Source: a virus. From it: a DNA stretch of 31,388 bases. Under the pieces are notes generated by a model. It was not told the DNA's origin. It was given only the letters and a program-made list of their open reading frames with translations, and ran no database searches. Location: positions 1-31,388 of the IMG/VR virus record IMGVR_UViG_3300037847_002635, one strand, 5' to 3'. The stretch's first letter is position 1; every line of letters begins with the position of its first letter. Below, piece by piece: positions 6,543-31,093 of the stretch. Made by a program: the position numbers and the translations under genes.

Positions 6543-8251
6543 TACAGGTAGACATACAAGAAGGTGCAGCGAAGAAAGACCTAAAAGATTTAAAAGAAGG
6601 TATTGATAAGGTCAATAAAGCACAAGTAAACCAAACTAAAGCTACAAAAGAAGCAAGTAAAGAAATGGTTAGTTATGGTGGTGCAGTAGATGGGGTTACT
6701 GGTGGTGCTGTTACAAAGTTTAGAGCATTAGCAGGTGGTATAAAAGCTGCAACTGCTTCTACAAAAGCATTTAGGATTGCCTTGATAGCAACAGGTATAG
6801 GTGCATTTGTTGTTGCTATAGGTACACTTGTTGCCAACCTACAAAATAGTGAAGCAGGATTTAACAGGGTACAAAAACTTCTAAAACAAGTAGGTGTAGT
6901 TGCAGGTAATGTTACTGATATATTCTTTTCATTAGGTACTTCTTTATTTGGTTTAGTTACTGGTGATTTTGAATTGATGACTAAAAGTTTTGATGAAGCT
7001 ACAGATAGAATAAAAAACTTTGGTGAAGAAACTAAAAGGGAAATAAAAATACAGGGTGATCTTGCAGACCAACAAGCTGAACTTACCAAAATAGAAAGAC
7101 AACTAACTGTAGATAGAGCAGAAGCAAATAGAAAAAGAGCAGAGTTATTAGAAAAATCAGCAGATAGAGAAAACTTTACTGCAAAACAAAGAATTAAATT
7201 TTTAGAAGAAGCAGGTAAAATAGATGAAGAAATTACAAATGCTGAAATAAAAGCTGCTGAAATAAGATTAAATTTAAAGGTAGAAGAAAACAAATTAAGT
7301 GAAAGTTCTAAAGAAGATTTAGATGAAGAAGCAAGATTAAAAGCAGAACTTACAAATCTTGAAACAGCAAGGTTAAGAAAACAAAGAGCAGTTACTGCAC
7401 AAATAACTACAGCATTACGAGAAGAACAAGCTGAAAGAAAAGCTATAAGAACCAAAGAGGAAGCAGAACAAAAAGCTGAAGATGCAAAACTACAGGCAAA
7501 GATAGAAAAAGAAAAAGCAGATGAACTTACAAGGTTAGAAGCAATAGATAAAATACAAAAAGAATTTAAACTTAAAAAAGAAGATGAAGAAGCTATACTT
7601 GAAAGTGAAAAGTTAGAATTAGAACAAGCAAGGAAATTACAAGAACTTACAGATTTAGAAGCTACAGAAGAACAAAAAGCAAGTATAATTAGTTTCTTTG
7701 GTGCTAAAATACAAAAGGCAAAAGATGATGAAGCTAAACAAGAAAAAGCAAGGGAAGAATTACTTACTAAACAAAAGTTAGCTCTAACTTCAAATACACT
7801 TGGTCAGGTATCACAGTTATTAGGTGAAAATACAGCAGCAGGTAAAGCAGCAGCAGTAGCACAAGCTATTATAAATTCTTATTTAGGTTTTACAGAAGTG
7901 TTAGCCAATAAAACAACTATACCTGAACCTTTTGGTAGTATACAAAAAGTAGTTAGTGCAGCATCTATACTTGCAAGTGGTATAAAAACTGTAAGGCAAA
8001 TCACAAGTGTTAAAACACCTAATACTGGTGGTGGTGGTATAAGTGTAGGTAGTGCAAGGGGATCAACAGCAGCCCCAACACCTGCAACACCCCCTGCATT
8101 TAATGTAGTAGGTGCATCAGATACTAACCAACTTGCAGAAGCAATAAGTGGTAGGGAACAAAAACCTGTAAAAGCATTTGTGGTTAGTAGTGATGTAAGT
8201 AATGCACAAAGTTTAGATAGGAATATAATTGAAACTGCAAGTATTGGGTAA
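6524..8251 (+). CDS. Tail tape measure protein
   Basis: A 575-residue protein dominated by long coiled coil (about residues 1-50 and 170-430; rich in Glu, Lys, Ala, Arg). A hydrophobic segment is present at about 85-108 (IALIATGIGAFVVAIGTLVA), with a second weaker one near 125-150. The C-terminal part is Gly/Ser/Pro-rich. This combination is characteristic of tape measure proteins, which fill the tail tube and set its length. At roughly 1.5 angstrom per residue it would correspond to a tail of about 85 nm. It overlaps the 51-aa gene upstream. Its stop overlaps the first box of a late promoter candidate at 8250. Confidence 0.85.
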   Translation: MAQKAIIQVDIQEGAAKKDLKDLKEGIDKVNKAQVNQTKATKEASKEMVSYGGAVDGVTGGAVTKFRALAGGIKAATASTKAFRIALIATGIGAFVVAIGTLVANLQNSEAGFNRVQKLLKQVGVVAGNVTDIFFSLGTSLFGLVTGDFELMTKSFDEATDRIKNFGEETKREIKIQGDLADQQAELTKIERQLTVDRAEANRKRAELLEKSADRENFTAKQRIKFLEEAGKIDEEITNAEIKAAEIRLNLKVEENKLSESSKEDLDEEARLKAELTNLETARLRKQRAVTAQITTALREEQAERKAIRTKEEAEQKAEDAKLQAKIEKEKADELTRLEAIDKIQKEFKLKKEDEEAILESEKLELEQARKLQELTDLEATEEQKASIISFFGAKIQKAKDDEAKQEKAREELLTKQKLALTSNTLGQVSQLLGENTAAGKAAAVAQAIINSYLGFTEVLANKTTIPEPFGSIQKVVSAASILASGIKTVRQITSVKTPNTGGGGISVGSARGSTAAPTPATPPAFNVVGASDTNQLAEAISGREQKPVKAFVVSSDVSNAQSLDRNIIETASIG

Positions 8252-8280
8252 CAAAACAAATAAATAATTATTGTTATAAT
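8250..8280 (+). promoter_or_regulatory. Late promoter-like element, copy upstream of the prohead protease gene
   Basis: AACAAA begins at 8250, TTATTG at 8268, and ATG follows at 8281, with TTATAAT between TTATTG and ATG. The 18-nt and 31-nt distances are the same as in the copies at 9789, 13359 and 16273. If TTATTG acts as a -10 box, transcription would start at or close to the ATG. Confidence 0.6.
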
Positions 8281-9636
8281 ATGGATATAATAGAACTTTT
8301 TATAGATGAAGAAGATGAAGTAAGTGGCATTGATGCAGTAAGTTTAGTAGAAAACCCTGCAATAGAAGAAGATTTTATAGCACTTAAATCACAAGAATAT
8401 AAGTTTGCAGAAGTAGACAAAGAAAAACGTATAATTATGGGTGCAGCACTTGTACCTAACAAACCTATTTTAAGAACTAAAAATGATGAACCTTACTATA
8501 TATATTTCAGTAGGGAAACAGTAAGAAAAGCAAGTGAACTATTTTTTATAAGAGGTAACAGTAAAAAATCTACACTTGAACATAAAGTACCCCTTGAAGG
8601 TTTAACAGCAGTTGAAACTTGGATAGTAGAAGATTTAGAAAAAGACAAAAGCAGGTTGTATGATATGGAAGTACCTCTTGGTACATGGATGTTATCAATG
8701 AAAGTTTTAAACGATGATATTTGGAACAACTACATAAAAACAGGAAAAGTAAAAGGTTTTAGTATTGAAGGTTACTTTGCAGACAAGTTAGAAAGACCAA
8801 ATGAACCAAACAAGTTAGAACAAATACAAGAAGAAGAAGCAGAATTTTTATTAGGACAAGTAAAAGCAATAATAAAAAAAGATAAAAGATTAAAGAAGGG
8901 TAAAAGAATTGAATTTGAAAGTTATAGTGATTACCCCAATGCAGTAAAAAACAACGCACAAAGAGGTATAGATTTAAATGCAAAAGTAAATAATAAATGT
9001 GCAACCCAAGTTGGAAAAATTAGAGCTTCACAATTAGCACAAGGTAAACCTATAAGTATAGAAACTATAAAAAGAATGTATAGCTTTTTATCAAGAGCAG
9101 GTGAATACTATGATGAAGGAAATACAGAAGCATGTGGTACTATTAGTTATTTACTTTGGGGTGGTAAAGCAGGTTTAAGATGGAGTGAAAGCAAACTAAA
9201 AGAACTTGAAATGTTAGCTGAAGTTGGTAAAAGAGGTGGTATAAAAAAAAGCCCTAAAGCCCCAAAATCAGATACACCAAACCCCAAACCAAAAGGAGAA
9301 GGTACAGCAAAAGGTGATGCTTCTACAAGTAGGGGTGCAAAAGTATCTAAACAAGATGAAGAAACTTTAAGACAAAAAGCTAAAGAATTTAACGAAAGAT
9401 ATAAAAAGAAACTTGGTTATGGTGCAAACGTAGGAACACTAAAAGCTGTTTTCCAAAGGGGGTTAGGTGCATTTAATGTTTCCCACAGCCCAAAAGTTAA
9501 AAGTGCATCACAATGGAGTTTTGCAAGAGTAAATGCCTTTTTATATTTACTTAAAAATGGTAGACCACAAAACCCAAAGTACACAGGTGATTTTGATTTA
9601 TTACCTGCTAAACACCCTAAAAGCCCTAAAAAATGA
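8281..9636 (+). CDS. Prohead protease (XkdF/S78-like) fused to two C-terminal phage modules
   Basis: A 451-residue protein with three parts. Residues about 45-170 form an XkdF-like protease domain (KRIIMGAALVPNKPI, LEHKVPLEG with His101, KGFSIEGYF with Ser161); His101 and Ser161 are the probable catalytic pair that trims scaffold and capsid during head maturation. Residues about 213-312 carry the phage module beginning SDYPNAVKNNAQRGI, with GKIRASQLAQGKPIS and SYLLWGGKAG. Residues about 355-451 match the DUF5824 pattern (RGLGAFNVSHSP, WSFARVNAFLYLL). The linker is Pro/Lys-rich. The role of the two C-terminal modules is unknown. An ATGA overlap joins it to the next small gene. Confidence 0.75.
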   Translation: MDIIELFIDEEDEVSGIDAVSLVENPAIEEDFIALKSQEYKFAEVDKEKRIIMGAALVPNKPILRTKNDEPYYIYFSRETVRKASELFFIRGNSKKSTLEHKVPLEGLTAVETWIVEDLEKDKSRLYDMEVPLGTWMLSMKVLNDDIWNNYIKTGKVKGFSIEGYFADKLERPNEPNKLEQIQEEEAEFLLGQVKAIIKKDKRLKKGKRIEFESYSDYPNAVKNNAQRGIDLNAKVNNKCATQVGKIRASQLAQGKPISIETIKRMYSFLSRAGEYYDEGNTEACGTISYLLWGGKAGLRWSESKLKELEMLAEVGKRGGIKKSPKAPKSDTPNPKPKGEGTAKGDASTSRGAKVSKQDEETLRQKAKEFNERYKKKLGYGANVGTLKAVFQRGLGAFNVSHSPKVKSASQWSFARVNAFLYLLKNGRPQNPKYTGDFDLLPAKHPKSPKK

Positions 9637-9782
9637 GAACACTATATATAGATGAATACAAACCTTGTAACACAGATGGTAAAAGAGCATGTTTATGCCC
9701 TGATGGTAAAACCTATTCAAGAAGGTGCTGTGATGGCAGTTTTCAAGCACAAGGTATAGGATCAGTTACAGGTACAAGTTAA
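9633..9782 (+). CDS. Cys-rich microprotein (49 aa)
   Basis: ATG 9633 overlaps the protease stop (ATGA). The 49-residue product has five cysteines, including CLCPDGKTYSRRCCDG, and ends in GIGSVTGTS. Paired cysteines suggest metal binding or disulfides. I recall similar small proteins beside capsid genes in Bacteroidetes phages, without known function. It lies inside the protease-scaffold-capsid block, so a capsid-associated role is a reasonable inference. Confidence 0.7.
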   Translation: MRTLYIDEYKPCNTDGKRACLCPDGKTYSRRCCDGSFQAQGIGSVTGTS

Positions 9783-9788
9783 AAATAC

Positions 9789-9819
9789 AACAAACAAAAC
9801 TAAATTTTATTGTAATATT
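9789..9819 (+). promoter_or_regulatory. Late promoter-like element, copy upstream of the scaffold gene
   Basis: AACAAA begins at 9789, TTATTG at 9807, ATG at 9820; TAATATT lies between TTATTG and ATG. Spacing is identical to the copies at 8250, 13359 and 16273. The element sits in the short gap between the Cys-rich microprotein and the scaffold gene. Confidence 0.6.
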
Positions 9820-10455
9820 ATGAAGGCAGATAATATGTTAGGAAAAATCAAAGAACTGTTAAACATTGAAGCACAAGTAGAAAAAGTAGAACTTGAACAA
9901 GCAACATTAGAAAATGGTACTGTTATAGAAAGTGAAAACTTTGAAGCAGGTAGTGAAGTGTTTATAGTAACAGAAGATGAAAAGGTAGCTTTACCTGTTG
10001 GTGAATATACTTTAGAAGATGGTGAAAAATTAATAGTAAAAGAAGAAGGCATTATAGCTTCTATTGGTGCAGAAGAAGAAAAAGAAGAAGAACCTAAAGA
10101 AGTTGCTGCTGAAGAAAATTTAAATACTGATAATATGAAAAATAAAGAAGTTGTACAAGAAGTACAAGAAAATCTTGAAGAAGAAAAGAAAGAAGAAATG
10201 CAGTATGCAACTAAAGAAGAGCTTGCTTCACTTCAAGATGAAATAAAAGAAATCAAAGGAATGATTGAAAAAATGGGTAAAAAAGAGGAAGAAATGAGTG
10301 CTGAAGATAAACCCATAGAAGAAAAAGAAGAACTTTCAGCAGTTGAAAAAGTAAAACATAACCCTGAAGAAGAAGTAAAAACTGAACCTGTATTTATGAG
10401 CAGAAGAGGTGAAACAACTTTTGATAGAGTTATGCGTAGAATTAATAACATATAA
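9820..10455 (+). CDS. Capsid scaffolding-like protein
   Basis: A 211-residue, strongly acidic protein. An N-terminal domain (about 1-90) with short beta strands (GSEVFIVTEDEKVALPVGEY) is followed by a Glu/Lys coiled coil (about 95-165) and a basic C-terminal tip (SRRGETTFDRVMRRINNI). Acidic coiled-coil proteins directly before the major capsid gene are usually scaffolds, and the basic tail would contact the capsid. A second possible start is Met6. It follows the protease gene, which would degrade it during maturation. Family assignment is by composition and position. Confidence 0.65.
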   Translation: MKADNMLGKIKELLNIEAQVEKVELEQATLENGTVIESENFEAGSEVFIVTEDEKVALPVGEYTLEDGEKLIVKEEGIIASIGAEEEKEEEPKEVAAEENLNTDNMKNKEVVQEVQENLEEEKKEEMQYATKEELASLQDEIKEIKGMIEKMGKKEEEMSAEDKPIEEKEELSAVEKVKHNPEEEVKTEPVFMSRRGETTFDRVMRRINNI

Positions 10456-10466
10456 TAATTTAGAAA

Positions 10467-11387
10467 ATGGCAACGAGTATTAGCACCAGTTATAGTGGCG
10501 AATTTGCAGGCAAGTACATCTCTGCAGCACTACTTTCTGGAAAAACTTTAGGTGAAGAAACAATAACAATTTTACCTAATATAGTGCATAAGCAAATTAT
10601 GCAAAAAGTAAGCAGTAATGATATCGTAAAAAATGGAGTTTGCGACTACAGCGACAGTTCAACTTTGACCTTAAGCGAAAGAACGCTGACTTTAGAGGAT
10701 TTTATGGTAAATGTTACTGTATGTAAAAAAGATTTCTTAAACACATGGCAAGCAGCAGAAGTTGGTTTAGGTGGTTTAGGTAGAGAGTTACCAAAATCTT
10801 TTGCAGATTTTATTATAGGACATTTTTCAGCTAAAGTGGCACAAAGAATGGAAACTAATATATGGGCAGGAGTAAATGGTACAGCAGGACAATTTGATGG
10901 ATTTAAAGCACTTCTTGCTGCTGATAGTGATGTAGTAGATGTAACTGCTACAGATGTAAATAGTGGTAATGTTATTACAGAATTAGGTAAAGTTGCTGAT
11001 GCAATTCCAAGTGCTGTTTATGGACAAGAAGATACTACTATATGGGTAGCAACAAATGTTTACAGAAGCTATATTAGAGCATTAGGTGGTTTTGGTGCTT
11101 CAGGATTAGGTGCAGCAGGTTATGAAGATAGAGGTAACAACCAAATCATAACACCTGCATACTTTGATGGTATTAAAATTTCACATGCACAAGGTTTAGG
11201 AACTAACGAAATGGTTGCAGGACAAAAAAGTAACTTTTTCTTTGGTACTTCTTTACTAAATGACTTGAATGAAGTAAAAGTAATTGACATGAGTGATATT
11301 GATGGTTCACAAAATGTTAGATTTGTAATGAGATTTCAAGCAGGTGTTCAATTTGGTGTAGGTTCTGATTGCGTTCAGTACACATAG
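10467..11387 (+). CDS. Major capsid protein (HK97 fold expected)
   Basis: A 306-residue protein located directly after protease and scaffold. It has the features of a HK97-fold capsid protein of the flavobacterial phage type: an N-terminal arm, a helix with SFADFIIGHFSAKVAQRMET, then a A-domain-like region (IWVATNVYRSYIRALGGFG) and a C-terminal strand block (RFVMRFQAGVQFGVGSD). No long pro-region is seen, which is expected when the scaffold is separate. The first 75 codons contain seven CpG in about 230 nt, while the remaining 700 nt contain about two. A terminator follows at 11413. Confidence 0.8.
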   Translation: MATSISTSYSGEFAGKYISAALLSGKTLGEETITILPNIVHKQIMQKVSSNDIVKNGVCDYSDSSTLTLSERTLTLEDFMVNVTVCKKDFLNTWQAAEVGLGGLGRELPKSFADFIIGHFSAKVAQRMETNIWAGVNGTAGQFDGFKALLAADSDVVDVTATDVNSGNVITELGKVADAIPSAVYGQEDTTIWVATNVYRSYIRALGGFGASGLGAAGYEDRGNNQIITPAYFDGIKISHAQGLGTNEMVAGQKSNFFFGTSLLNDLNEVKVIDMSDIDGSQNVRFVMRFQAGVQFGVGSDCVQYT

Positions 11388-11412
11388 AATACTAATTAAT
11401 TAACTATAAAAG

Positions 11413-11448
11413 GGTAGGTAGGGTTTATATCTATCTACCTTTTTTTTT
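11413..11448 (+). terminator. Rho-independent terminator after the capsid gene
   Basis: GGTAGGTAG (11413-11421) pairs with CTATCTACC (11431-11439) as nine base pairs with one G-U, closed by a nine-base loop and followed by nine T. Confidence 0.85.
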
Positions 11449-11462
11449 AAAAATATAATATT

Positions 11463-12011
11463 ATGGCATGTAATTTAACAAGGGGTAGAAAAGAACCATG
11501 TAAAGATGTAGTTGGTGGTATTAAGGGTGTATACTTTTTTGATTTTGGATCAATAACAGCAGGTTTTGATGGTGTTGATACAGATGTAATAGATGATTTA
11601 GGTGCAGTTACTTGTTTTAACTATGAAGTAAAGGGTAACAGTAGTTTTGAACAAACTATAACAAGTTCAAGAGAAAATGGTACAACTTTTTTCGAGCAAA
11701 CACTAAATCTTACACTAAAAAAACTAACAGTACAAGACCATAAAGAGCTTCGTTTAGTGAGTTATGGTAGACCTCATGTGGTAATAGAAGATTACAATGG
11801 TAATGCTTTTATGATGGGGTTAGAGCATGGTGCAGATGTTTCAGGTGGTACTATAGTTACTGGTGCAGCTATGGGTGATTTAAGTGGTTATACACTTACA
11901 CTAACAGCACAAGAACTAAAACCTGCTAACTTTTTAGAAGGTGCAACTTCAGCAAACCCATTTGCAGGGTTATCTAACACAGTAACAGTAACAGAAGGTA
12001 CAAACAGTTAG
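11463..12011 (+). CDS. Major tail tube protein
   Basis: A 182-residue protein. The start MACNLTRGRKEPCKDVVGG followed by IKGVYFFDFG is, from memory, typical of tail tube proteins of Bacteroidetes phages. The remainder is beta-rich (FEQTLNLTLKKLTVQDHKEL, YTLTLTAQELKPANFL), consistent with a tube subunit. It is separately bounded by terminators at 11413 and 12037, as expected for a protein needed in high copy. A TATAAT-like AT-rich stretch lies directly before the ATG, but the full late element is missing here. Confidence 0.75.
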   Translation: MACNLTRGRKEPCKDVVGGIKGVYFFDFGSITAGFDGVDTDVIDDLGAVTCFNYEVKGNSSFEQTITSSRENGTTFFEQTLNLTLKKLTVQDHKELRLVSYGRPHVVIEDYNGNAFMMGLEHGADVSGGTIVTGAAMGDLSGYTLTLTAQELKPANFLEGATSANPFAGLSNTVTVTEGTNS

Positions 12012-12036
12012 GATTTGATTTTTTTGTTTTATGGAA

Positions 12037-12063
12037 GGGTGGCAATAGCTGCCCTTTTTTTTT
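12037..12063 (+). terminator. Rho-independent terminator after the tail tube gene
   Basis: GGGTGGC (12037-12043), loop AATA, GCTGCCC (12048-12054), then nine T. Seven pairs including two wobbles. The sequence resembles the hairpins at 12520, 13328 and 30173. Confidence 0.85.
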
Positions 12064-12065
12064 AA

Positions 12066-12095
12066 TGCGAATTTACTGTTCGCATATAGTTCGCA
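12066..12095. promoter_or_regulatory. Clustered TTCGCA repeats, candidate operator
   Basis: TGCGAA (12066-12071) is followed by TTCGCA at 12079-12084 and again at 12090-12095. The first forms an inverted repeat with the second (7-nt gap), and the last two are direct repeats of TTCGCATAT/TTCGCATA type with an 11-nt period, about one helical turn. Three CpG within 30 nt are striking in a genome that almost lacks CpG. A protein-binding site is the best guess. Confidence 0.45.
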
Positions 12096-12212
12096 TATTT
12101 GTATTGTCAATATTGGCATACAATTAATAAGAGGTGTTAAGAGCATCACAAAGTTTTCAATAATATAGATAAATTAAAAAAAGAATTAGTTACAGTAGAA
12201 GATTGTGATAAT

Positions 12213-12497: not shown

Positions 12498-12519
12498 GTA
12501 TGTGTGTTTTTAATTTTGG

Positions 12520-12547: not shown

Positions 12548-12548
12548 A

Positions 12549-12660
12549 TAACATATTGTTACAGATATAACATTTACATATAAAATTGTTACAAAACTAT
12601 ATTTATTTGGTTGTCAACAAGTTATTAACTATATTGTATGTGAACTGTTAAGTTCAGTTC
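12549..12660 (+). promoter_or_regulatory. Promoter with TAACA/TGTTA half-sites before the cysteine-peptidase-like gene
   Basis: A host-type promoter is visible: TTTG (12606-12609), 20 nt, TATATTGT (12630-12637). Upstream lies the perfect dyad TAACA-TAT-TGTTA (12549-12561), with further half-sites TAACA at 12568 and TGTTA at 12587, and a direct repeat ATTGTTACA at 12555 and 12585 (30-nt spacing). In the leader GAACTG (12642-12647) and CAGTTC (12655-12660) form a six-base-pair inverted repeat. The arrangement suggests an individually regulated gene. Confidence 0.5.
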
Positions 12661-12692
12661 TTTGAAATATTGTTTAACTAAATTATTATAAA

Positions 12693-13316: not shown

Positions 13317-13327
13317 GTAACCAACAA

Positions 13328-13354
13328 GGGTAGCAGAAATGTTGCCCTTTTTTT
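13328..13354 (+). terminator. Rho-independent terminator after moron cassette 3
   Basis: GGGTAGC (13328-13334), loop AGAAAT, GTTGCCC (13341-13347), then seven T. Seven pairs with two wobbles. Confidence 0.8.
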
Positions 13355-13358: not shown

Positions 13359-13389
13359 AACAAAATAGAAGTACTTTTATTGTATATAT
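13359..13389 (+). promoter_or_regulatory. Late promoter-like element, copy upstream of the portal operon
   Basis: AACAAA begins at 13359, TTATTG at 13377, ATG at 13390, with TATATAT between TTATTG and ATG. It lies five bases after the T run of a terminator, so a new transcript has to start here for the portal operon to be expressed. Confidence 0.65.
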
Positions 13390-13731
13390 ATGATAGTTTT
13401 ACAAAGTTCAGGTAGTAGCCAAACATTTAGTTTTATTCCAAGAACATACACTTCAGGAAACACTTATACAATTAAGATAAACAACGAAAGCACAAACAAA
13501 GAAGTGTTTAGTCAAACATCTACAAGTTTTACAGAAGTAAATTACTATTACCAGTACAGCAATACTTTTACTTTAGTAGAAGATACTTTTTATACTTTAG
13601 AAATTACAGAAGGTAGTACACTAATTTTTAGAGATAAAATATTTTGCACTAATCAAACAGTAGCAGATTTTACAATAAATCAAAACCAGTACACTACCAA
13701 CACAACAACTAACGAATTTGTATTTATATAA
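13390..13731 (+). CDS. Small virion-type protein (113 aa), Ig-like, upstream of portal
   Basis: A beta-rich 113-residue protein containing the block LIFRDKIFCTNQ near residues 78-89, which I recognise from small proteins preceding portal genes in flavobacterial phages. The C-terminus is Thr/Asn-rich (YTTNTTTNEFVFI). It begins right after a late promoter candidate and stops two bases before the portal start. A head decoration or head fibre role is a plausible inference; no motif proves it. Confidence 0.55.
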   Translation: MIVLQSSGSSQTFSFIPRTYTSGNTYTIKINNESTNKEVFSQTSTSFTEVNYYYQYSNTFTLVEDTFYTLEITEGSTLIFRDKIFCTNQTVADFTINQNQYTTNTTTNEFVFI

Positions 13732-16210: not shown

Positions 16211-16329
16211 AATATAAAGCCAAAGAAAATAACATTAAGAAACTTACAGAATACTTAAACAAAAAAGTATATAACAAAAACCAACAAAATTTATTGTATA
16301 AATATGGCAAACACAATAAACTGGGGTAG
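16207..16329 (+). CDS. Possible 40-aa basic protein downstream of the connector
   Basis: ATG 16207 overlaps the connector stop (ATGA) and 40 codons follow, ending TAG 16329. The product is very Lys/Asn-rich (MKYKAKENNIKKLTEYLNKK). It overlaps the next gene by 26 nt and carries the complete late element (16273-16303) inside its coding sequence. It could be real or merely an open leader. Confidence 0.35.
   Translation: MKYKAKENNIKKLTEYLNKKVYNKNQQNLLYKYGKHNKLG
16273..16303 (+). promoter_or_regulatory. Late promoter-like element, copy upstream of the fibre operon
   Basis: AACAAA begins at 16273, TTATTG at 16291, ATG at 16304, with TATAAAT between TTATTG and ATG. Together with the ATG this contains TATAAATA, the consensus of T4 late promoters, but the upstream box and fixed spacing are extra. 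Confidence 0.65.
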
Positions 16330-20128: not shown

Positions 20129-20511
20129 TACCAAAGAATGGCACTTTTAGATTCTTATTACACTTTTCAGGTGCATTACTTGTGTTTTTTCTGATAGTAG
20201 GCATACTGGTATATTTAACAGAATACACTATACCTGAAGAAAATGCTTCTATAGTAAACACACTAATAGGTATGATAGCTGCAAGTGTAGCCATGATTAT
20301 TTCAACTATTACAGGTAGAAACCCTGATGAACTTGAAAGTGCAAAGAAAAAAATAAGTTCCCTTGAAATGAAAGTAGATATGCTTGTAAGCCAAAAAGAT
20401 AGTTTAGAAAATTTAGTTATAGAAATGCAAAAAGATAGTATAGAAAAGTTATCTTTGATGAGTACAGTATGGATTGATGATTTAAGAAAAAATGACACTA
20501 AAAAACTTTAA
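20125..20511 (+). CDS. Two-TM membrane protein with coiled-coil tail, holin or spanin-like candidate
   Basis: A 128-residue protein. Hydrophobic segments lie at about 9-31 ([19 protein letters not shown]) and 42-61 ([18 protein letters not shown]), followed by a coiled coil (about 68-115). The overlap with the endolysin start (20492) is 20 nt. Two transmembrane segments with a charged coiled coil fit a holin or an inner-membrane lysis accessory. No signal peptidase II site is seen, so a classical outer-membrane spanin is not supported. Confidence 0.55.
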
Positions 20512-20869
20512 ACTTGAAGAATTTGATAGCCCTGATTTTAAAGGTTCAGGTAAAAATATGGATGCTGATTTTATGCAGTTACTTGACAGGGCAAGAACTG
20601 AAGCAGGAATACCATTTAAAATCAATAGTGGATATAGAACAGAAAGCCATAATGCAAAAGTGGGTGGAAAACCTAAAACAAATACAAGCAAAGGAAGTAG
20701 CCACATGTATGGACTTGCAGCAGATATTGCCTGTACAGATTCTGTTACAAGACAAAAAATACTTACAGCACTTATTAAAGTTGGATTTACAAGAGCAGGT
20801 ATTGCCCAGTCATTCGTGCATGTCGATTATGATAATTCTAAACCAAATGCAATTTGGCTTTATAGCTGA
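20492..20869 (+). CDS. Endolysin, peptidase M15-like (D-Ala-D-Ala/L-Ala-D-Glu type)
   Basis: A 125-residue single-domain protein matching the M15_3 pattern: [13 protein letters not shown] near residues 42-54, [12 protein letters not shown] with zinc ligands His71 and Asp78, and FVHVDYD with catalytic/ligand residues Asp112 and His110. Members cleave peptidoglycan cross-links or stem peptides. There is no signal peptide, so it needs a holin; membrane proteins flank it. ATG 20492 gives the full N-terminal helix ([13 protein letters not shown]). Confidence 0.85.
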
Positions 20870-20892
20870 AACTGCTTTAGTAGGAAATACAC

Positions 20893-21273
20893 ATGATAAA
20901 ATTACTGTTAGGTTTATTAAAAGGTGGTAACAAAGAAAAATCTAATTTAGGTTCACTTGCTTGGGAAATAAGAGAAGCCATAAAAGGTAAAGAACTTGAT
21001 CCAAACGAACTTATACAAATACAAACAAAGATAAATGAAATTGAAGCAAAACACAGAAGTGTTTTTGTTGCAGGTTGGCGACCTTTTGTTGGTTGGGTTT
21101 GTGGTGTAGCACTTGCATATAATTTTATAATTAGAGATTTATTTATATGGGCTTTACAACCTGAAGAAGTACCCCCTGCTTTACAGATGGAACACTTGAT
21201 GACTGTACTAATGGGCATGTTAGGGTTAGGTGGTTTAAGAACATTTGAAAAAATCAAGGACAAAACAAGATAA
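20893..21273 (+). CDS. 3TM holin family protein
   Basis: A 126-residue protein. A charged N-terminal helical part is followed by SVFVAGWRPFVGWVCGVALA (about 56-75) and MTVLMGMLGLGGLRTFEK (about 103-121). This pattern, with WRPF-x-GW and GMLGLGGLRT-x-EK, is the signature of the holin family first described in gene transfer agents (GTA holin 3TM). It would open the membrane for the M15 endolysin. The ATG is 23 nt after the endolysin stop, and its stop overlaps the next start by 1 nt. Confidence 0.8.
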   Translation: MIKLLLGLLKGGNKEKSNLGSLAWEIREAIKGKELDPNELIQIQTKINEIEAKHRSVFVAGWRPFVGWVCGVALAYNFIIRDLFIWALQPEEVPPALQMEHLMTVLMGMLGLGGLRTFEKIKDKTR

Positions 21274-21407: not shown

Positions 21408-21461
21408 CAAACTTGACTTTGTAAAAAAAAACGACTAACTTTGGTGGGTTAGTGGGAATAT

Positions 21462-23574: not shown

Positions 23575-23795
23575 TACATATAGTGATAACACTTTTGATA
23601 TTAACAACTGCAGCTATGTACTGGAGTAATATAGTAGATGGTAATGTAAGTATTGCACCTATCATTGGTTTGATGTTTGGCTGTTTATATTCTTACCAAC
23701 AATTAGAAGAAGAAACTGAATACACTTTACAATTTTGTTTATTTATAGTAAGTATTACAGTAGAATGGAAAAGTACAAATGGATTGAAAAAGTAG
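23571..23795 (+). CDS. Small membrane protein (74 aa)
   Basis: TTG 23571 overlaps the helicase stop (TTGA). The 74 residues contain hydrophobic stretches at about 1-20, 27-42 and 50-62 and a charged turn QQLEEETEY. In-frame ATG at codon 16 is a later alternative, but it would remove the first membrane segment. The end overlaps the sigma-like gene by 31 nt. The function is unknown. Confidence 0.5.
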   Translation: MIHIVITLLILTTAAMYWSNIVDGNVSIAPIIGLMFGCLYSYQQLEEETEYTLQFCLFIVSITVEWKSTNGLKK

Positions 23796-24313
23796 CCAAG
23801 TATCATAATGACTGGATTAAAATAGTAAATACTTTTGGTGAATATAATTATGCAGAAGATATAGTACAACTTTCTTATTTAGCACTTATGAGATATGCAA
23901 GTGAAAACAAAGTAATAAAAAATGGTAAGGTAAGCAGGGGTTATATGTACTTTACATTACGATCACTTTTTTACCAGTATTACAATAAAAAGAAAAAAGT
24001 AAAAAAATATAGTATAGATAATGGTGAATATGATATACAACTTCCCTACCAAGACAATATAGAAGAAAACGAAGCATACCACAAAATTTGTAATTTAGTA
24101 GATAATGTTACAGATACATGGCATTGGTATGATAAAAAATTATGGAAGCTATACAGCCAAACAGATATGAGTATAAGAAAACTTGCAAGTGAAACTAAAA
24201 TAAGTTGGGTAAGCATATTCAACAGTTTAAAACATTTAAAGAAAGACATAAAACATAAACTTGCAGAAGATTGGGAAGATTTTAAAAATAATGATTTTGA
24301 TAAAATAAAATAA
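23765..24313 (+). CDS. Sigma-factor-like DNA-binding protein
   Basis: The ATG at 23765 (MEKYKWIEKVAKYHNDWIKI) is preferred over upstream non-ATG starts and gives 182 residues. A region-2-like helix pair contains FGEYNYAEDIVQLSYLALM and GYMYFTLRSLFYQYYNKKKK, matching the organisation of ECF/sigma-70 region 2 (DIVQ..., aromatic helix). The C-terminal part holds MSIRKLASETKISWVSIFNS, followed by LKHLKKDIKHKL, a helix-turn-helix of region 4 type. It could direct RNA polymerase to the two-part late promoter element found in this genome. A transcription role is inferred; no test is possible from sequence alone. Confidence 0.6.
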   Translation: MEKYKWIEKVAKYHNDWIKIVNTFGEYNYAEDIVQLSYLALMRYASENKVIKNGKVSRGYMYFTLRSLFYQYYNKKKKVKKYSIDNGEYDIQLPYQDNIEENEAYHKICNLVDNVTDTWHWYDKKLWKLYSQTDMSIRKLASETKISWVSIFNSLKHLKKDIKHKLAEDWEDFKNNDFDKIK

Positions 24314-25215: not shown

Positions 25216-25227
25216 TAAAAAACAATT

Positions 25228-25992: not shown

Positions 25993-26348
25993 AACAATTA
26001 CAAGAATTAGTAGAAAAAAGAATTAAAGAAATAAAAGAAACAGAAGTAGTAAAACAACCTAAAGAAGAAAGAAAAACTTTACCTGTATATTCAGGGGTGT
26101 TAAAATACTTTCCTGATGCTATAAAAGAAATAGCAAGATGCAGTTACAAAGGTAACCTACAACATAACCCCAATAAAAAACTACATTGGGATAGAAGCAA
26201 AAGTGGTGATGAACTTGATGCACTTACAAGGCATTTACTACAAGCAGGTACACTTGATACAGATGGTGTAAGCCATAGTGTTAAGGTAGCATGGCGAGCA
26301 TTAGCTTACCTGCAAAAAGAAATTGAAAGTGGTGAAGAAATAATTTGA
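25989..26348 (+). CDS. dNTP pyrophosphohydrolase-like protein (DUF5664 pattern)
   Basis: A 119-residue protein. Residues about 30-110 follow the DUF5664 (dATP/dGTP diphosphohydrolase N-terminal) pattern: VYSGVLKYFPDAIKEIARCS, KLHWDRSKSGDELDALTRHL and SHSVKVAWRALAYL. His and Asp/Glu residues in these helices would bind the metal. Homologues are thought to adjust nucleotide pools. The N-terminal 30 residues are a Lys/Glu helix. No purine-modification partner genes (PurZ type) are visible, so base replacement is not supported. Overlaps both neighbours by 4 nt. Confidence 0.65.
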   Translation: MKQLQELVEKRIKEIKETEVVKQPKEERKTLPVYSGVLKYFPDAIKEIARCSYKGNLQHNPNKKLHWDRSKSGDELDALTRHLLQAGTLDTDGVSHSVKVAWRALAYLQKEIESGEEII

Positions 26349-26509
26349 AACTTAATACTATACATGAATTTTACCTTCTTACCCTACAGGATATAGATGA
26401 TGGTGCAACCAAACAAGAACTACTAAAAATAGTAGAAATGTATGAACAGCAAGAAATGTATGAAGCATGTGCAGGTATGATAAAAGCAATAAAAGAAAGT
26501 TATGATTAA
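26345..26509 (+). CDS. Hypothetical 54-aa helical protein with TTG start
   Basis: TTG 26345 overlaps the stop of the DUF5664-like gene (TTGA). The 54 residues are helical (MKLNTIHEFYLLTLQDIDDG, EMYEQQEMYEACAGMIKAIK). Its end overlaps ATG 26502. No internal ATG gives a similar protein, so the TTG start is favoured. Confidence 0.5.
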   Translation: MKLNTIHEFYLLTLQDIDDGATKQELLKIVEMYEQQEMYEACAGMIKAIKESYD

Positions 26510-26933
26510 AAAAATTAAAGAATTAGTAGAAACAGAAACAGGTATAGAAGATATATCATTAAAGAAAAGAACACAACCTTATGTAGAAGCAAGGGTGTTA
26601 TATTCTAACCTTGCACTTAAACATACAAAGCTATCTTGTAAAAGAATAGGTGAAGAAATAAACAGGGATCACAGTAGCGTAGTACACCACAAAAAAGTAT
26701 TTACACAATGGCTACACCTTAAAAAGTTTTATGCACAAAACCTAAACAGCTACAAAACACTTGAAAGTATGTTAGAAGAAGAAAAGGTAGTAGATACAAA
26801 TGCTATAGATTTATACAGAAAGTACAAAAGAGAAAGTAAGATACTACTAAAACAAAACAAAGAACTTCTTAAAAAACTTGAAGAAAAGCAAAAAGAAATA
26901 GATAGGTTAAAAAAGTATGAACCTATATGGTAA
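26502..26933 (+). CDS. DnaA domain IV-like DNA-binding protein with coiled coil
   Basis: A 143-residue protein. Residues about 15-65 match DnaA domain IV: an opening helix with KKRTQPYVEARVLYSNLA, LSCKRIGEEINRDHSSVVHH, where RDHSSVVH corresponds to the DnaA signature (DHTTVLHA type). The rest is a long coiled coil (about 95-140). AAA+ domain and ATP motifs are absent, so it cannot act as a full initiator. It could mark the phage origin or compete with host DnaA. Similar domain-IV-only proteins occur in some Bacteroidetes phages. Confidence 0.75.
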   Translation: MIKKIKELVETETGIEDISLKKRTQPYVEARVLYSNLALKHTKLSCKRIGEEINRDHSSVVHHKKVFTQWLHLKKFYAQNLNSYKTLESMLEEEKVVDTNAIDLYRKYKRESKILLKQNKELLKKLEEKQKEIDRLKKYEPIW

Positions 26934-26954
26934 ACAATTATTAAAATAAACAAA

Positions 26955-27464
26955 ATGGACAACAGAGAAGAACAAGTATTAAAAAGAGATTACAAAATTT
27001 TAAAAGATGGAACATTACTAAACCCTTTTGGTAAAAGAGTAGGTAGTGTAAGTGGCAAAGGTTATTTAAAAATACAAGTAACATTGTTTGATTTAAAAGA
27101 ACAAAAAAATAAAGTAAAAGAAGTTTTTTTACATAGAATACAAGCATTTAAAAAGTATGGTAAACAACTATACAAAGAAGGGGTAAATGTTAGGCATTTA
27201 GATGACAATAAATTAAATAATAGTTATTCTAATATTGCAATAGGTAGTGCAAAAGATAATTACCATGATAGAGGATGGGAAGCTATAAATAAATTACAAA
27301 GAAAAGCTACTATGGCAAGTATGAAATATACAGAAGAAGATATAGAGAAAGCAAAACAACATTATAAAACATCTTTAAACCTAAAAGAAACTGCAAAAAA
27401 ATTTAACATACCACACACTACTTTGCACTATAGGTTTTACGGAAAGAAAAAACAAGTAAGGTAG
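26955..27464 (+). CDS. HNH endonuclease, free-standing homing type
   Basis: A 169-residue protein. A N-terminal strand block (ILKDGTLLNPFGKRVGSVSG) is followed by VFLHRIQAFKKYG with the first His, NVRHLDDNKLNNSYSNIAIG (second His, and the Asn-Asn of the HNH_3 motif) and KDNYHDRG. The C-terminal part (about 130-165) carries a helix-turn-helix (LKETAKKFNIPHTTLHYRFY). This is typical of homing endonucleases that spread between phages. It lies between the DnaA-like gene and the methyltransferase and starts with A-rich leader AACAAA before ATG. Confidence 0.75.
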   Translation: MDNREEQVLKRDYKILKDGTLLNPFGKRVGSVSGKGYLKIQVTLFDLKEQKNKVKEVFLHRIQAFKKYGKQLYKEGVNVRHLDDNKLNNSYSNIAIGSAKDNYHDRGWEAINKLQRKATMASMKYTEEDIEKAKQHYKTSLNLKETAKKFNIPHTTLHYRFYGKKKQVR

Positions 27465-27467
27465 TAA

Positions 27468-28097
27468 ATGAAAGTTTTAGAATTATTTGCAGGTAGTAGA
27501 AGTATAGGCAAAGTTGCAGAAGAATTAGGGTACGAAGTTTTTAGTACAGATGTAAATAATTTTGATGGTATAGATTATGTTGTAGATATACTAAACTTTG
27601 ACATAAATAAAATACCATTTGCACCTGACATTGTTTGGGCTTCACCACCATGTACTGCTTTTACAGTTGCAAGAATAGGTATTAACTGGCACAAAGACCA
27701 CACCCCAAAAACAGAAAAAGCAAAGTTTGGTTTGAAACTTGTAGAAAAAACATTAGATATAATAAATAAAATAAACCCAAAGTATTACTATATAGAAAAC
27801 CCAAGAGGTAAGTTAAGAAAATTAGATGTTGTAAAAGGTTTACCAAGAACTACTGTATGGTATTGTAAATATGGTGATACAAGGGCTAAACCTACTGATA
27901 TTTGGACAAATAATTTAAAAAGTATATTTAATCCTAATGGTTGGTTGCCAAGATCAGAATGTTTTAATGGAAATAAAAATTGCCATCATGAAGCAGCACC
28001 AAGAGGTAGTAGAACTGGCACACAAGGATTAAAAGGTAATTATGACAGAAGTAAAATACCTGTAGAACTTTGTAAAGAAATACTACTATCTGTTTAA
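27468..28097 (+). CDS. C5 cytosine DNA methyltransferase, small phage type
   Basis: A 209-residue protein with motif I LELFAGSRSIG, motif IV WASPPCTAF with catalytic Cys62, and motif VI YYIENPRGKLR (ENP instead of the usual ENV, residues 110-112). YCKYGDTRAKPTDIW resembles motif VIII, and RSKIPVELCKEIL motif X. The target recognition domain is very short, so the specificity is uncertain. It probably methylates phage DNA against host restriction. The genome's CpG scarcity raises the question of whether the target contains CpG. Its stop overlaps a late promoter box at 28096. Confidence 0.75.
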   Translation: MKVLELFAGSRSIGKVAEELGYEVFSTDVNNFDGIDYVVDILNFDINKIPFAPDIVWASPPCTAFTVARIGINWHKDHTPKTEKAKFGLKLVEKTLDIINKINPKYYYIENPRGKLRKLDVVKGLPRTTVWYCKYGDTRAKPTDIWTNNLKSIFNPNGWLPRSECFNGNKNCHHEAAPRGSRTGTQGLKGNYDRSKIPVELCKEILLSV

Positions 28098-28127
28098 CAA
28101 AACACTATTTTTTTTATTGTATATTTG
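28096..28127 (+). promoter_or_regulatory. Late promoter-like element upstream of the terminase cluster
   Basis: AACAAA begins at 28096 and TTATTG at 28114, the same 18-nt spacing as in the structural operons. Here the seventh base after TTATTG is not an ATG. TATATTTG (28120-28127) is a perfect match to the Bacteroidetes -7 consensus TAnnTTTG. The first ATG is 28148, leaving a leader of about 20 nt. Confidence 0.6.
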
Positions 28128-28147
28128 ATTAATCAACTTTTTTCAAG

Positions 28148-28480
28148 ATGACAAAGGAAATTGCACAGGAGTTAGAAAAGTATGTACAAACAATTAAAAA
28201 TAGATATTCAATAAAAAACAGGGCGGGTAATTATAACCAAGAAAGTTTTGACATAAAAGAAACTATACCAACTTCAGATCATACAGCAACAGTTATATTT
28301 GAAAAGAGTACAGGTAAATTTGCATGTTTCTTTTTTTACTACATAAATAAAGGATTATCAAAAGGGTGGAAATATTTTGTACCTACAGATAGCCACATAA
28401 CAGGAATGAGGGCTTTTGAATATTATAAAATAAACGTAGAAAGGGAAAACTACAAGTATAATTTTAACTATAGCAAATAA
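28148..28480 (+). CDS. Conserved hypothetical 110-aa protein before terminase
   Basis: A soluble 110-residue protein with a N-terminal helix (KEIAQELEKYVQTIKNRY) and a beta-rich middle (TATVIFEKSTGKFACFFFYY). I recognise no function. It is the first gene after a late-type element and stands 8 nt before the terminase small subunit, so co-expression with packaging genes is likely. Confidence 0.5.
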   Translation: MTKEIAQELEKYVQTIKNRYSIKNRAGNYNQESFDIKETIPTSDHTATVIFEKSTGKFACFFFYYINKGLSKGWKYFVPTDSHITGMRAFEYYKINVERENYKYNFNYSK

Positions 28481-28488
28481 ATACAGAT

Positions 28489-28722
28489 ATGGCACATGGG
28501 GGTAAAAGGCAAGGGGCAGGAAGAAAATCTAAAGCAGAAGAAATAGATTTAATAGAAAAACTATCACCATTAGAACCTGAAGCATTTGCAGCTTTAACTA
28601 AAGGAATACAAAAAGGGGATTTTAAGTTTGTACAATTATTTTATAATTACTGGGCAGGTAAACCAAAAGAAACAAAAGATATAACCATAAACGAAGATGT
28701 ACCTTTGTGGTTAGAAGATTAG
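28489..28722 (+). CDS. Terminase small subunit-like protein
   Basis: A 77-residue protein. The opening GGKRQGAGRKSKAEE is characteristic of small terminase subunits and their N-terminal DNA-binding helices, and the C-terminal half has FVQLFYNYWAGKPKETKDI. It would recognise the packaging site and recruit the large subunit. It is short for the family. It ends on the base before the large subunit starts. Confidence 0.7.
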   Translation: MAHGGKRQGAGRKSKAEEIDLIEKLSPLEPEAFAALTKGIQKGDFKFVQLFYNYWAGKPKETKDITINEDVPLWLED

Positions 28723-29889
28723 ATGTTTAAAAAAACACAAGCACTATATAAATTACTGGAGTTAAAGAACAGGGTAAGGATTGTATGTGGGGGTACTTCA
28801 GCAGGTAAAACAATTTGCATATTACTTATATTAATACAAGATTCAATAAAAAATAAAGGTAGGGAAGTATCAGTAGTAGCTTCTACTGTACCTGCACTTC
28901 GCAGGGGTGTACTAAAAGATTTTCTAAAGATTATGAAAACTACAAATAGATACAAAGAAGAAAGTTTTAATAAAACCACACTTAAATACACTTTTAGTAA
29001 TGGCAGCTATATAGAATTTTTTAGTATAGATCAACCTGATAAGATAAGAGGTAGTAGAAGAACAGATTTATTTATAAACGAATGTAACACTATACCAAAT
29101 GGTTTTGAAAGCTACCAACAATTAGCCATAAGAACTTCAGGTAAGATATGGTTAGATTACAACCCCACCAGTTTGTTTTGGGTAGACAAAGAATTAAAAG
29201 GGCAAGTAGATACAGATTTTGTAAGATTAACATACAAAGACAACAACACACTACCTGAAGGTATAATAAAGGAATTAGAAAAGGCAAGAGATAAAGCCAA
29301 GACAAGTAGCTACTGGGAAAACTGGACAAGGGTTTATTTAGATGGGCTTACAGGGGCTTTACAAGGTGTTTGCATACCTGATTGGCAAGAGATAGACAAA
29401 CTGCCCACAGAAGCTAAATTATTAGGTTATGGTATGGACTTCGGTTATGTTGATCCTACTACAATAATTGCACTATACAAATGGAACAATGCTTATATAT
29501 TTGATGAAGTATTATACAAAAGTAATATGGTGTTAAGAGATGTAAGTTTGTTTCTTACACAAAACAATATAAAAGAAAACATAATAGCAGACCATGCAGA
29601 ACCTAAAAGTATAGCTACCTTGTCAATGGATGGTCACAAGATATACCCCTGCACTAAAGGTAGGGATAGTGTTACCTATGGTATAAACATGATAAACCAA
29701 AATGAAATATATGTAACAAGTAATAGTAAGAATTTAAAAAGAGAACTACAAGGTTATGTGTGGGCAAGGGATAAAGAAGGTAACACAATAGAAAAACCAA
29801 CTGGGGTTCATCCAGATTGCATTGATGCATGCAGGTATATTTTAACAGACCATTTAAGTACCCCAAAAGGGGAATATTATATTTATTAA
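28723..29889 (+). CDS. Terminase large subunit
   Basis: A 388-residue protein with an ATPase domain (Walker A VCGGTSAGKTI, Lys29; Walker B RTDLFINECNT near 111-121) and an RNase H-like nuclease domain starting with GYGMDFGYVDPT (Asp239), continuing with YIFDEVLYKS, NIIADHAEPKS and the C-terminal HPDCIDACRYIL. It packages DNA into the prohead through the portal. The length and pattern match the PBSX/XtmB-type terminases. It lies directly after the small subunit, with no gap. Confidence 0.9.
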   Translation: MFKKTQALYKLLELKNRVRIVCGGTSAGKTICILLILIQDSIKNKGREVSVVASTVPALRRGVLKDFLKIMKTTNRYKEESFNKTTLKYTFSNGSYIEFFSIDQPDKIRGSRRTDLFINECNTIPNGFESYQQLAIRTSGKIWLDYNPTSLFWVDKELKGQVDTDFVRLTYKDNNTLPEGIIKELEKARDKAKTSSYWENWTRVYLDGLTGALQGVCIPDWQEIDKLPTEAKLLGYGMDFGYVDPTTIIALYKWNNAYIFDEVLYKSNMVLRDVSLFLTQNNIKENIIADHAEPKSIATLSMDGHKIYPCTKGRDSVTYGINMINQNEIYVTSNSKNLKRELQGYVWARDKEGNTIEKPTGVHPDCIDACRYILTDHLSTPKGEYYIY

Positions 29890-29905
29890 AAAAAATTAGT
29901 TAATA

Positions 29906-29937
29906 TTTGGTTGATAAGTAAAAAGGTTGTATATTTA
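29906..29937 (+). promoter_or_regulatory. Host-type (Bacteroidetes) promoter after the terminase operon
   Basis: TTTG (29906-29909), 20 nt, TATATTTA (29930-29937), close to TTTG-N19-TAnnTTTG. The A-rich leader ends at ATG 29957. Confidence 0.7.
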
Positions 29938-29956
29938 TATTATAAAACAATTAAAA

Positions 29957-30166
29957 ATGAGAAATTTAGAACAAATAGTATTTAACAAAATAAAAAATAT
30001 TACAACAAACGAAGGTGCTTTTGCTGATAAGAAAATAAAACCTTATGCTAATTATACTTTAGATTCAATTAAAAAATATACAACTTTTTATGATGTTATA
30101 GATGTAATTAAAAAAGGTTATGATATTGATTTGGCAATTAACACTTACCTTAAAAAAGGATTTTAA
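29957..30166 (+). CDS. Hypothetical 69-aa early-type protein
   Basis: ATG 29957 (MRNLEQIVFNKIKNITTNEG) is chosen because it follows a promoter and an A-rich leader; an upstream TTG at 29927 lies inside the promoter itself. The protein is basic and helical, with no recognised family. It is closed by the terminator at 30173, so it is a monocistronic gene. Confidence 0.55.
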   Translation: MRNLEQIVFNKIKNITTNEGAFADKKIKPYANYTLDSIKKYTTFYDVIDVIKKGYDIDLAINTYLKKGF

Positions 30167-30172
30167 TTTACA

Positions 30173-30194
30173 GGGGTAGCAATACCCCTTTTTT
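30173..30194 (+). terminator. Rho-independent terminator after the 69-aa gene
   Basis: GGGGTA (30173-30178), loop GCAA, TACCCC (30183-30188), then six T. The loop region resembles that of the hairpins at 12037 and 12520. Confidence 0.85.
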
Positions 30195-30215
30195 ATTAAC
30201 TTTAAAAAAACAATT

Positions 30216-30347
30216 ATGGAAAAACTAAATTTAACTGAAAAAAAATTACTTGATAATATATTGCAATATGCAGTAAATAGTGATGACTATGAAAGTTATG
30301 CACCAGTAATACAAAATATATATACAAAATTAAATTTAAACAAATAA
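30216..30347 (+). CDS. Hypothetical 43-aa protein
   Basis: ATG 30216 stands after AACAATT, the same leader as at 25228 and 30355. The 43-residue product (MEKLNLTEKKLLDNILQYAV) is helical and acidic. No promoter is obvious, so it may depend on readthrough. No family is recognised. Confidence 0.5.
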   Translation: MEKLNLTEKKLLDNILQYAVNSDDYESYAPVIQNIYTKLNLNK

Positions 30348-30354
30348 AACAATT

Positions 30355-30657
30355 ATGGATAAAATTATACAATATTCAGAAAATTTAAATTTTACTTCTG
30401 CTTCAGGTAAAACCTTTAGTAAAACAATTATTAGATTAAATAAGAAAATAAATCAATTAAGACAATCTATACACAATAGAGAACAAGATATAATAAATAG
30501 AGAAAAGGAAATAAAAAAGAAAGATGAAGAAATTAAAAAATTAAAACAAAATATAAATAAAAGAATAGCTGAAAATAATGCTATGGATGAACAATTAAAA
30601 AATTTAGAAACACAGATTATAAACACAAATTTTGAAACATGGAAGAATATAGATTAA
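30355..30657 (+). CDS. Coiled-coil protein (100 aa)
   Basis: A 100-residue protein, almost entirely a Lys/Glu/Asn-rich coiled coil (about 25-90). ATG follows AACAATT. Its end overlaps the start of the next membrane protein (30639) by 19 nt. The role is unknown. Confidence 0.55.
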   Translation: MDKIIQYSENLNFTSASGKTFSKTIIRLNKKINQLRQSIHNREQDIINREKEIKKKDEEIKKLKQNINKRIAENNAMDEQLKNLETQIINTNFETWKNID

Positions 30658-30800
30658 TTAAAATGGTAGTAAATGATAAAGAAAACAGAAAAACATTATA
30701 CAAGGTATTAGGTTATGCCTTTATATCTTTTGTAAGTTTTTTTAGTTTCTTGTATGGTACAATGTATTTTATTGTATGGATGGTAAGCATGAAACAATGA
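30639..30800 (+). CDS. Single-TM membrane protein (53 aa)
   Basis: ATG 30639 gives 53 residues with a long hydrophobic stretch at about 25-50 (GYAFISFVSFFSFLYGTMYF). It overlaps the coiled-coil gene by 19 nt and the next gene by 4 nt. Neighbouring genes are early-type, so a host-membrane function such as superinfection exclusion is conceivable but unproven. Confidence 0.5.
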   Translation: MEEYRLIKMVVNDKENRKTLYKVLGYAFISFVSFFSFLYGTMYFIVWMVSMKQ

Positions 30801-30994
30801 GTGCATGTTGGGGTGCTGATTGCTATGTATATTACAAACCAGTAGAACAAGGAAAGAACAAAATGGTAAAACTGGAAATGAATTTACAAGGTAATGTAGT
30901 AACAGGCAAAGAACTATATAAACAAAACAGTAAAGAGATAATAAAAAAAATTGAAGAACTATATGAATATATTTATAAAAATTATGTAACTTAA
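30797..30994 (+). CDS. Hypothetical 65-aa protein
   Basis: ATG 30797 overlaps the preceding stop (ATGA), the genome's usual coupling, and gives 65 residues starting MSACWGADCYVYYKPVEQGK. An in-frame ATG at 30776 would add seven residues. The product has two cysteines near the start and a basic/acidic helix at the end. No family is recognised. Confidence 0.5.
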   Translation: MSACWGADCYVYYKPVEQGKNKMVKLEMNLQGNVVTGKELYKQNSKEIIKKIEELYEYIYKNYVT

Positions 30995-31031
30995 AGTAAT
31001 TTCATTTGATTTTAATTTGGTTAATATGAAG

Positions 31032-31056
31032 GCAGGTAGAAATACCTGCTTTTTTT
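31032..31056 (+). terminator. Rho-independent terminator before the tail operon
   Basis: GCAGGTA (31032-31038), GAAA tetraloop, TACCTGC (31043-31049), then seven T. Seven perfect pairs. It separates the early-type genes from the late tail operon. Confidence 0.9.
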
Positions 31057-31062
31057 GTGTTA

Positions 31063-31093
31063 TACACTTTGGCTATAATTTTATTGTATAAGT
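31063..31093 (+). promoter_or_regulatory. Late promoter-like element, degenerate upstream box, before the tail operon
   Basis: TTATTG begins at 31081 and ATG at 31094, with TATAAGT between them, matching the other copies. The upstream box at 31063 reads TACACT instead of AACAAA. It lies just after the terminator at 31032, where a promoter is needed for the tail operon. Confidence 0.55.

Follow-up and report, generated by a model that had tools for sequence, protein, structure and literature searches.

A conserved two-box motif as the probable late promoter of a group of Bacteroidetes phages carrying a predicted ECF-type sigma factor

Results

A two-box motif in front of late genes

The 31.4-kb virus record IMGVR_UViG_3300037847_002635 (31,388 nt, analysed in full and referred to below as the window), in which structural, packaging, lysis and replication genes are all recognisable, carries a motif of two boxes, AACAAA-N12-TTATTG, in front of its late genes. 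This dyad is probably the late promoter of a whole phage group, to which the host RNA polymerase would be directed by a phage-encoded sigma factor of the extracytoplasmic function (ECF) type. The motif, its conservation, strand bias and structural-gene targets, the sigma-like protein and the co-occurrence of protein and motif were all established by computation. The predicted ECF-type sigma factor encoded by the phage is a plausible reader of the conserved motif.

Five exact copies of the dyad were detected in the window, all on the plus strand, while none was found on its minus strand (Table 1). A preliminary description, made from the sequence alone, had reported four identical copies of AACAAA-N12-TTATTG-N7-ATG, and the exact matches at 8250, 9789, 13359 and 16273 were verified. 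The two irregular copies were also as described there: the fifth dyad, at 28096, keeps both boxes and the spacing but ends without an ATG, the start codon of the gene following 28 nt downstream, and a sixth site, at 31063, retains TTATTG-N7-ATG behind a weak upstream box, TACACT, which is TACAAA in many relatives. When d is defined as the number of nucleotides between the TTATTG-type box and the ATG, all five ATGs at d=7 represent the earliest possible start of their own open reading frame (ORF), with no in-frame ATG, GTG or TTG upstream. The location of sites directly after a terminator or a gene end was likewise borne out, with terminator-like hairpins 5' of promoters 3 and 6, and with the upstream boxes of promoters 1 and 5 overlapping the TAA that closes the gene before, which for promoter 1 ends at 8251. 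The tail operon behind promoter 6 resumes at the left end of the window (2-8251).

When the window was Markov-shuffled 300 times, a given spacing between AACAAA and TTATTG never appeared more than twice, as against five occurrences at spacing 12. The sharing of one ATG distance by four of the five copies has a probability of about 6e-5, 40 distances being allowed for. With a position weight matrix trained on the relatives, the window being left out, the five window sites scored 22-33 bits, whereas the best of 40 randomised windows reached 11.8.

Conservation of the motif among relatives

Relatives were obtained from IMG/VR via portal and terminase matches. In the window plus 96 such contigs, the dyad at spacing 12 was found 150 times in the forward direction, at 92 distinct sites, as compared with 3 times in reversed sequence and 0 times on the opposite strand; each of the other spacings from 8 to 17 gave 0-5 dyads. 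The distance to the ATG, determined for 136 sites in the window and 80 portal relatives, was 7 in 102 cases, 8 in 19, 9 in 3 and 20 in 5, with 7 others. For the counterparts of promoter 2, distances of 7, 8, 9 or 20 were observed.

The association with structural and packaging genes, also proposed in the preliminary description, extends to the near-complete relatives, in which six late gene families carry the dyad: the protease, the scaffold-like gene, the small pre-portal gene, the small gene preceding the virion genes, the small subunit of the terminase and the first gene of the tail. Within the late blocks the dyad stands only before the first gene. Absence of the motif from the same places in related phages had been named beforehand as refuting; instead it is kept at the same genes, with fixed spacing, in about a hundred contigs. 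A contig scan of genomes with the window protease as query yielded no relative.

A predicted ECF-type sigma factor

From profile and structure comparisons, the product of the ORF at 23765-24313 is apparently an ECF-type sigma factor of two domains. When this ORF was searched alone, no confident family match was obtained. Among the 32 members of its aligned family, however, 17 matched Pfam Sigma70_r2 (best E 2.9e-5), the window's own protein not being among them, and the best PDB match of the family profile was region 2 of an ECF sigma factor (1h3l, E=0.048), aligned over the DIVQE segment. The AlphaFold2 model of the window protein (pLDDT, predicted local distance difference test, 78.7) comprises a region-2-like domain and, joined to it by a disordered linker at 77-96, a region-4-like domain with helices at 99-174. 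Its best Foldseek matches were ECF sigma factors (E=1.5e-3, probability up to 1.00), and its region 4 superimposed on that of E. coli sigma-E bound to -35 DNA (2h27) with a TMt of 0.80 and a root-mean-square deviation of 1.7. Both features of the ECF group (group IV) of sigma-70 proteins, region 2 and a linker-joined region 4 without regions 1.1 and 3, are present.

The family looks like a phage family rather than a common host ECF factor, since 84,980 genomes of bacteria and archaea, scanned by way of short conserved stretches that divergent members can escape, yielded a single relative, located on a 5.7-kb contig of a Bacteroidetes metagenome-assembled genome. No match to the window sigma factor was found by tblastn among isolate phage records. 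In several relatives the sequence TACAAT-N12-TAATTA-N13-ATG was considered as an autoregulatory promoter of the sigma gene, but was rejected: it seems to fall within the conserved end of the coding region upstream, and it is not found before the sigma gene of the window.

The strand of the motif follows that of the sigma gene. With the pattern ACAA-N13-TTATTR, 82 copies lay on the same strand as the sigma gene and 3 on the opposite strand in records G000-G015; in the other records the numbers were 78 and 7. Of 38 near-complete virus records, the window counted, 36 carried the sigma gene, but the records had been found via portal, terminase or sigma matches, and the co-occurrence of sigma factor and motif is partly built in by this sampling. 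Several further points weigh against the proposed pairing. The window sigma factor has no Pfam match at E<=0.01, its PHROG support is weak (E=0.025), and its Foldseek E-values are all above 0.001. The relatives are of common ancestry and the motif counts are not independent. No residue of the sigma factor separates phages using TTATTG from those using TTATTA, and records G018-G020 (the L109/L110/L113 clade) carry the sigma gene with almost no copies of the searched pattern.

The cultured phage P12024L and variant downstream boxes

By portal protein, the cultured phages closest to the window are P12024L and P12024S of Nonlabens/Persicivirga, which makes a host among the Bacteroidetes very probable for the window phage. 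In P12024L, gp35 matches Sigma70_r2 above the Pfam cut-off and aligns with the window sigma family by hhalign (95.6%, E=1.2e-8); tblastn with gp35 matched only P12024 records. Before the structural genes of P12024L (L166, 3000-27600) stands AACAAA-N13/14-CGTTAA, with the ATG 6 nt further on (once 5), and its first gene is preceded by a CGTTAT variant of the site. A clade-level change in the last base of the putative -10 box is seen in clades B and E and in G002, where it reads TTATTA. A more distant clade (L103/L104/L115) has AACAAA and then, about 5 nt ahead of the ATG, ATATTTATA, as noted by eye only, together with a remote homologue of the sigma factor. As a cultured phage, P12024L makes the model of sigma factor and motif testable.

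Distance to the start codon and predicted leaders

Clade E, to which G026, G031, L212 and L227 belong, for example, retains the dyad at the same genes, with TTATTA or TAATTT as the presumed -10 box, but the ATG lies 15-20 nt past it, with an A-rich leader in between. At the terminase site the distance from dyad to ATG is 27-34 nt in nearly all clades. Since in both cases a leader separates the dyad from the ATG, the distance being 15-34 nt, the dyad is, on this comparison, conserved independently of the ATG, which does not belong to the predicted promoter. The preliminary claim of a promoter that ends at the start codon stands as regards a two-part promoter not of the host type, but not as regards the ATG.

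At the ATG-locked sites the minimum distance is 7, no convincing d below 7 being found, as expected if transcription starts at the ATG. The distance from the 8-bp -7 box to the start site is 4-5 nt in Flavobacterium (PMC6847099, PMC9723704), and in the phage the extended form of the predicted -10 box, TTATTGTA, ends 5 nt before the ATG. In TTATTG-N7-ATG the predicted -10 box stands at a distance that would place the start site on the ATG, as in leaderless genes. In the genes with d=7-9, the frequency of the host-like A at -12/-13 was 0.12/0.02, as against 0.65/0.57 in other genes with an upstream gap, a contrast that counts less in favour of leaderless messages because it is partly forced, the -10 box filling those positions in d=7 genes. 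In genes with d>=20 the frequencies were 0.40/1.00 (A at -13 in 10/10).

Judged from this geometry, five of the six late promoters should yield leaderless mRNAs, and the terminase promoter an mRNA with a leader of about 21 nt. The earlier proposal of leaderless late messages is therefore retained for five sites and given up for the terminase site, where the ATG is 28 nt away. Since only about 5.5% of mRNAs are leaderless in F. psychrophilum (PMC9723704), five leaderless late units out of six would be unusual. Within the terminase leader (28114-28147), some relatives have an ATG 5 nt past TTATTG that opens an ORF of 8 codons; its frame and start codon are not kept, and it was rejected as a conserved element.

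Table 1. Positions of the predicted promoters, terminator-like hairpins and sigma factor gene in the window
Feature	Position	Strand	Description
Predicted late promoter 1	8250..8283	+	AACAAA 8250-8255, TTATTG 8268-8273, N7, ATG 8281; precedes XkdF-like head maturation protease gene
Predicted late promoter 2	9789..9822	+	AACAAA 9789-9794, TTATTG 9807-9812, N7, ATG 9820; precedes acidic scaffold-like gene and 306-aa gene at 10467
Terminator-like hairpin and T-run	13326..13349	+	immediately 5' of predicted late promoter 3
Predicted late promoter 3	13359..13392	+	AACAAA 13359-13364, TTATTG 13377-13382, N7, ATG 13390; precedes small gene and portal gene (13734)
Predicted late promoter 4	16273..16306	+	AACAAA 16273-16278, TTATTG 16291-16296, N7, ATG 16304; precedes downstream tail/virion genes
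Host-type -7 box TAACTTTG, candidate early promoter	21436..21443	+	upstream of replication genes and sigma gene; host consensus from PMC9723704
Predicted ECF-type sigma factor gene, 182 aa	23765..24313	+	Sigma70_r2 in relatives, PDB profile, AlphaFold2, Foldseek; proposed reader of the six promoters
Predicted late promoter 5	28096..28150	+	AACAAA 28096-28101, TTATTG 28114-28119, 28 nt, ATG 28148; precedes terminase genes (28489 small-subunit-like, 28723 large)
Terminator-like hairpin and T-run	31028..31053	+	immediately 5' of predicted late promoter 6
Predicted late promoter 6	31063..31096	+	degenerate upstream box TACACT 31063-31068, TTATTG 31081-31086, N7, ATG 31094; precedes tail operon

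Host-type promoters and other features of the window

Of the host-type -7 boxes that do not fall within a gene, TAACTTTG at 21436 is the best. Host-type promoters had earlier been suggested at 12606, 25185 and 29906, but none of these is an exact TAnnTTTG box. A scan of the window for E. coli-type sigma-70 promoters gave no excess, as expected for Bacteroidetes.

The two ends of the window (2-128 and 31262-31388) form a near-repeat of 127 bp with 4 mismatches, indicating that the gene from 31094 runs on at the left end; circularity or terminal redundancy of the map, together with strain variation, is the probable explanation. A Cys-rich ORF of 49 aa (ACLCPDGKTYSRRCCDG), which is under the cut-off of the ORF list, lies at about 9634-9780, with the protease gene on one side and the scaffold-like gene on the other. 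A lysis cassette at 20492-21273 consists of an M15 peptidase and a holin of the gene transfer agent (GTA) type. The protein encoded at 26502-26933, a possible second regulator or replication protein, carries the C-terminal DNA-binding domain of DnaA (PF08299, 3e-11), with a coiled-coil-like tail behind it. A gene at 28148-28480 intervenes between promoter 5 and the small-subunit-like terminase gene; in several relatives the terminase small-subunit gene directly follows the promoter.

Discussion

The order of events that we infer for this phage group, including the pairing of sigma factor and motif and the exact 5' ends, is as follows. Early in infection, transcription by the host RNA polymerase and the primary sigma factor of the host (sigma-A) would begin at a site such as that at 21436. 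The replication module, and with it the phage sigma gene, would then be expressed as middle genes. Late in infection, the phage sigma factor would steer the host RNA polymerase to the six late units, recognising AACAAA as a -35-like element with an ECF-like AAC core and, across the fixed gap of 12 nt, TTATTG, usually followed by TA, as the -10 element. Transcription would start about 7 nt past TTATTG, which at five promoters corresponds, within about 2 nt, to the A of the start codon, and at the terminase promoter to a position about 21 nt ahead of the ATG.

Other readings of the dyad have to be weighed against this model. It is unlikely, but deserves consideration, that the late promoter is read by an alternative sigma factor of the host, such as Flavobacterium SM5 with its TAnnTTGY box, while the phage sigma factor serves other genes. 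Several ECF sigma factors exist in the host Bacteroidetes, and TTTATTGT is only one position off the SM5 box (PMC9723704). The motif, however, was found in phages that carry the phage sigma family, and neither the TTATTA of clades B and E and of G002 nor the CGTTAA of P12024L fits SM5. Furthermore, we know of no fixed AACAAA partner of the SM5 box.

We consider it quite improbable that the dyad, instead of being a pair of -35 and -10 elements, is bound by another DNA-binding activator of the phage that recruits the host polymerase with sigma-A. The window does encode other possible regulators, such as the DnaA C-terminal-domain protein, and a host-type box, TATATTTG, lies at 28120, past the dyad; but this box is not retained in relatives, and the remaining sites are without a downstream host -7 box and leave no space for one ahead of the ATG.

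That the conserved block is a translation signal on a longer mRNA, and no promoter, seems very improbable. Such a signal would agree with the block ending at the start codon in most genes and with the use of non-Shine-Dalgarno signals by Bacteroidetes, but not with the leaders between dyad and ATG in clade E, nor with the block standing only ahead of first genes, nor with the terminators just upstream at two sites; in addition, T at -12/-13 is contrary to the known preference of the host (PMC6847099). A chance origin in an AT-rich genome can be dismissed, since, even though both boxes are AT-rich and a count with three mismatches (superseded by the exact and matrix scans) gave about as many matches in the window as in shuffles, without excess, the exact matches, scores and conservation are far above the controls, and conservation at orthologous genes refutes it.

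Recognition of the dyad by the phage sigma factor may be compared with known systems. The late promoter of T4 consists of a -10 element only and requires gp33 and the sliding clamp, unlike the two-box, start-codon-locked sites described here, which belong to Bacteroidetes phages and are paired with a sigma factor predicted to have region-2 and region-4 domains. The essential factors gp55 of T4 and gp28/gp34 of SPO1 (PMC9429907) nevertheless act as proposed here, in that a phage sigma factor redirects the host RNA polymerase to middle or late genes. With the bacterial ECF sigma factors (sigma-E/RpoE; Flavobacterium SM6) the window protein shares the two-domain fold, and its predicted target the AAC in the -35 element; the CGTTAA of P12024L also resembles the CGT -10 element of Flavobacterium SM6 (PMC9723704). 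In contrast to these factors, the family is phage-borne, and TTATTG is no usual ECF -10 element. The late promoters of phiKZ and AR9 are likewise short and phage-specific, transcription in phiKZ starting at the G of TATG (PMC4666361), but they are read by multisubunit RNA polymerases of the phages, and AR9, with the late motif AACA-N6-TA/G, has leaders of 26-491 nt. In leaderless genes of bacteria, the -10 box precedes the start codon by about 10-12 bp (PMC3160421); the geometry is the same and allows the same reasoning, but the promoters are those of the host.

Phage sigma factors (PMC9429907), phage-specific late promoters (PMC4666361) and leaderless genes (PMC3160421) are each known already. 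A search of the open-access literature revealed neither the three combined in this phage group nor any description of promoters or sigma factors for this group of marine Bacteroidetes phages, most subscription papers lying outside that search.

Late gene control in marine Bacteroidetes phages has been little described. The present analysis names an unannotated gene family as predicted sigma factors, and the motif and its candidate reader are now open to testing in a cultured phage. As a tentative generalisation, clearly less secure than the promoter itself, the entire late programme of a large group of Bacteroidetes phages may depend on an ECF-type sigma factor of the phage, with mostly leaderless mRNAs for the virion genes. 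The related clades with leaders at the same promoters would allow a switch between leadered and leaderless messages to be compared at orthologous genes. If the proposal is true, late translation would in effect be moved off the leader-dependent initiation of the host, and the pair of sigma factor and promoter may operate apart from host sigma-A in Bacteroidetes.

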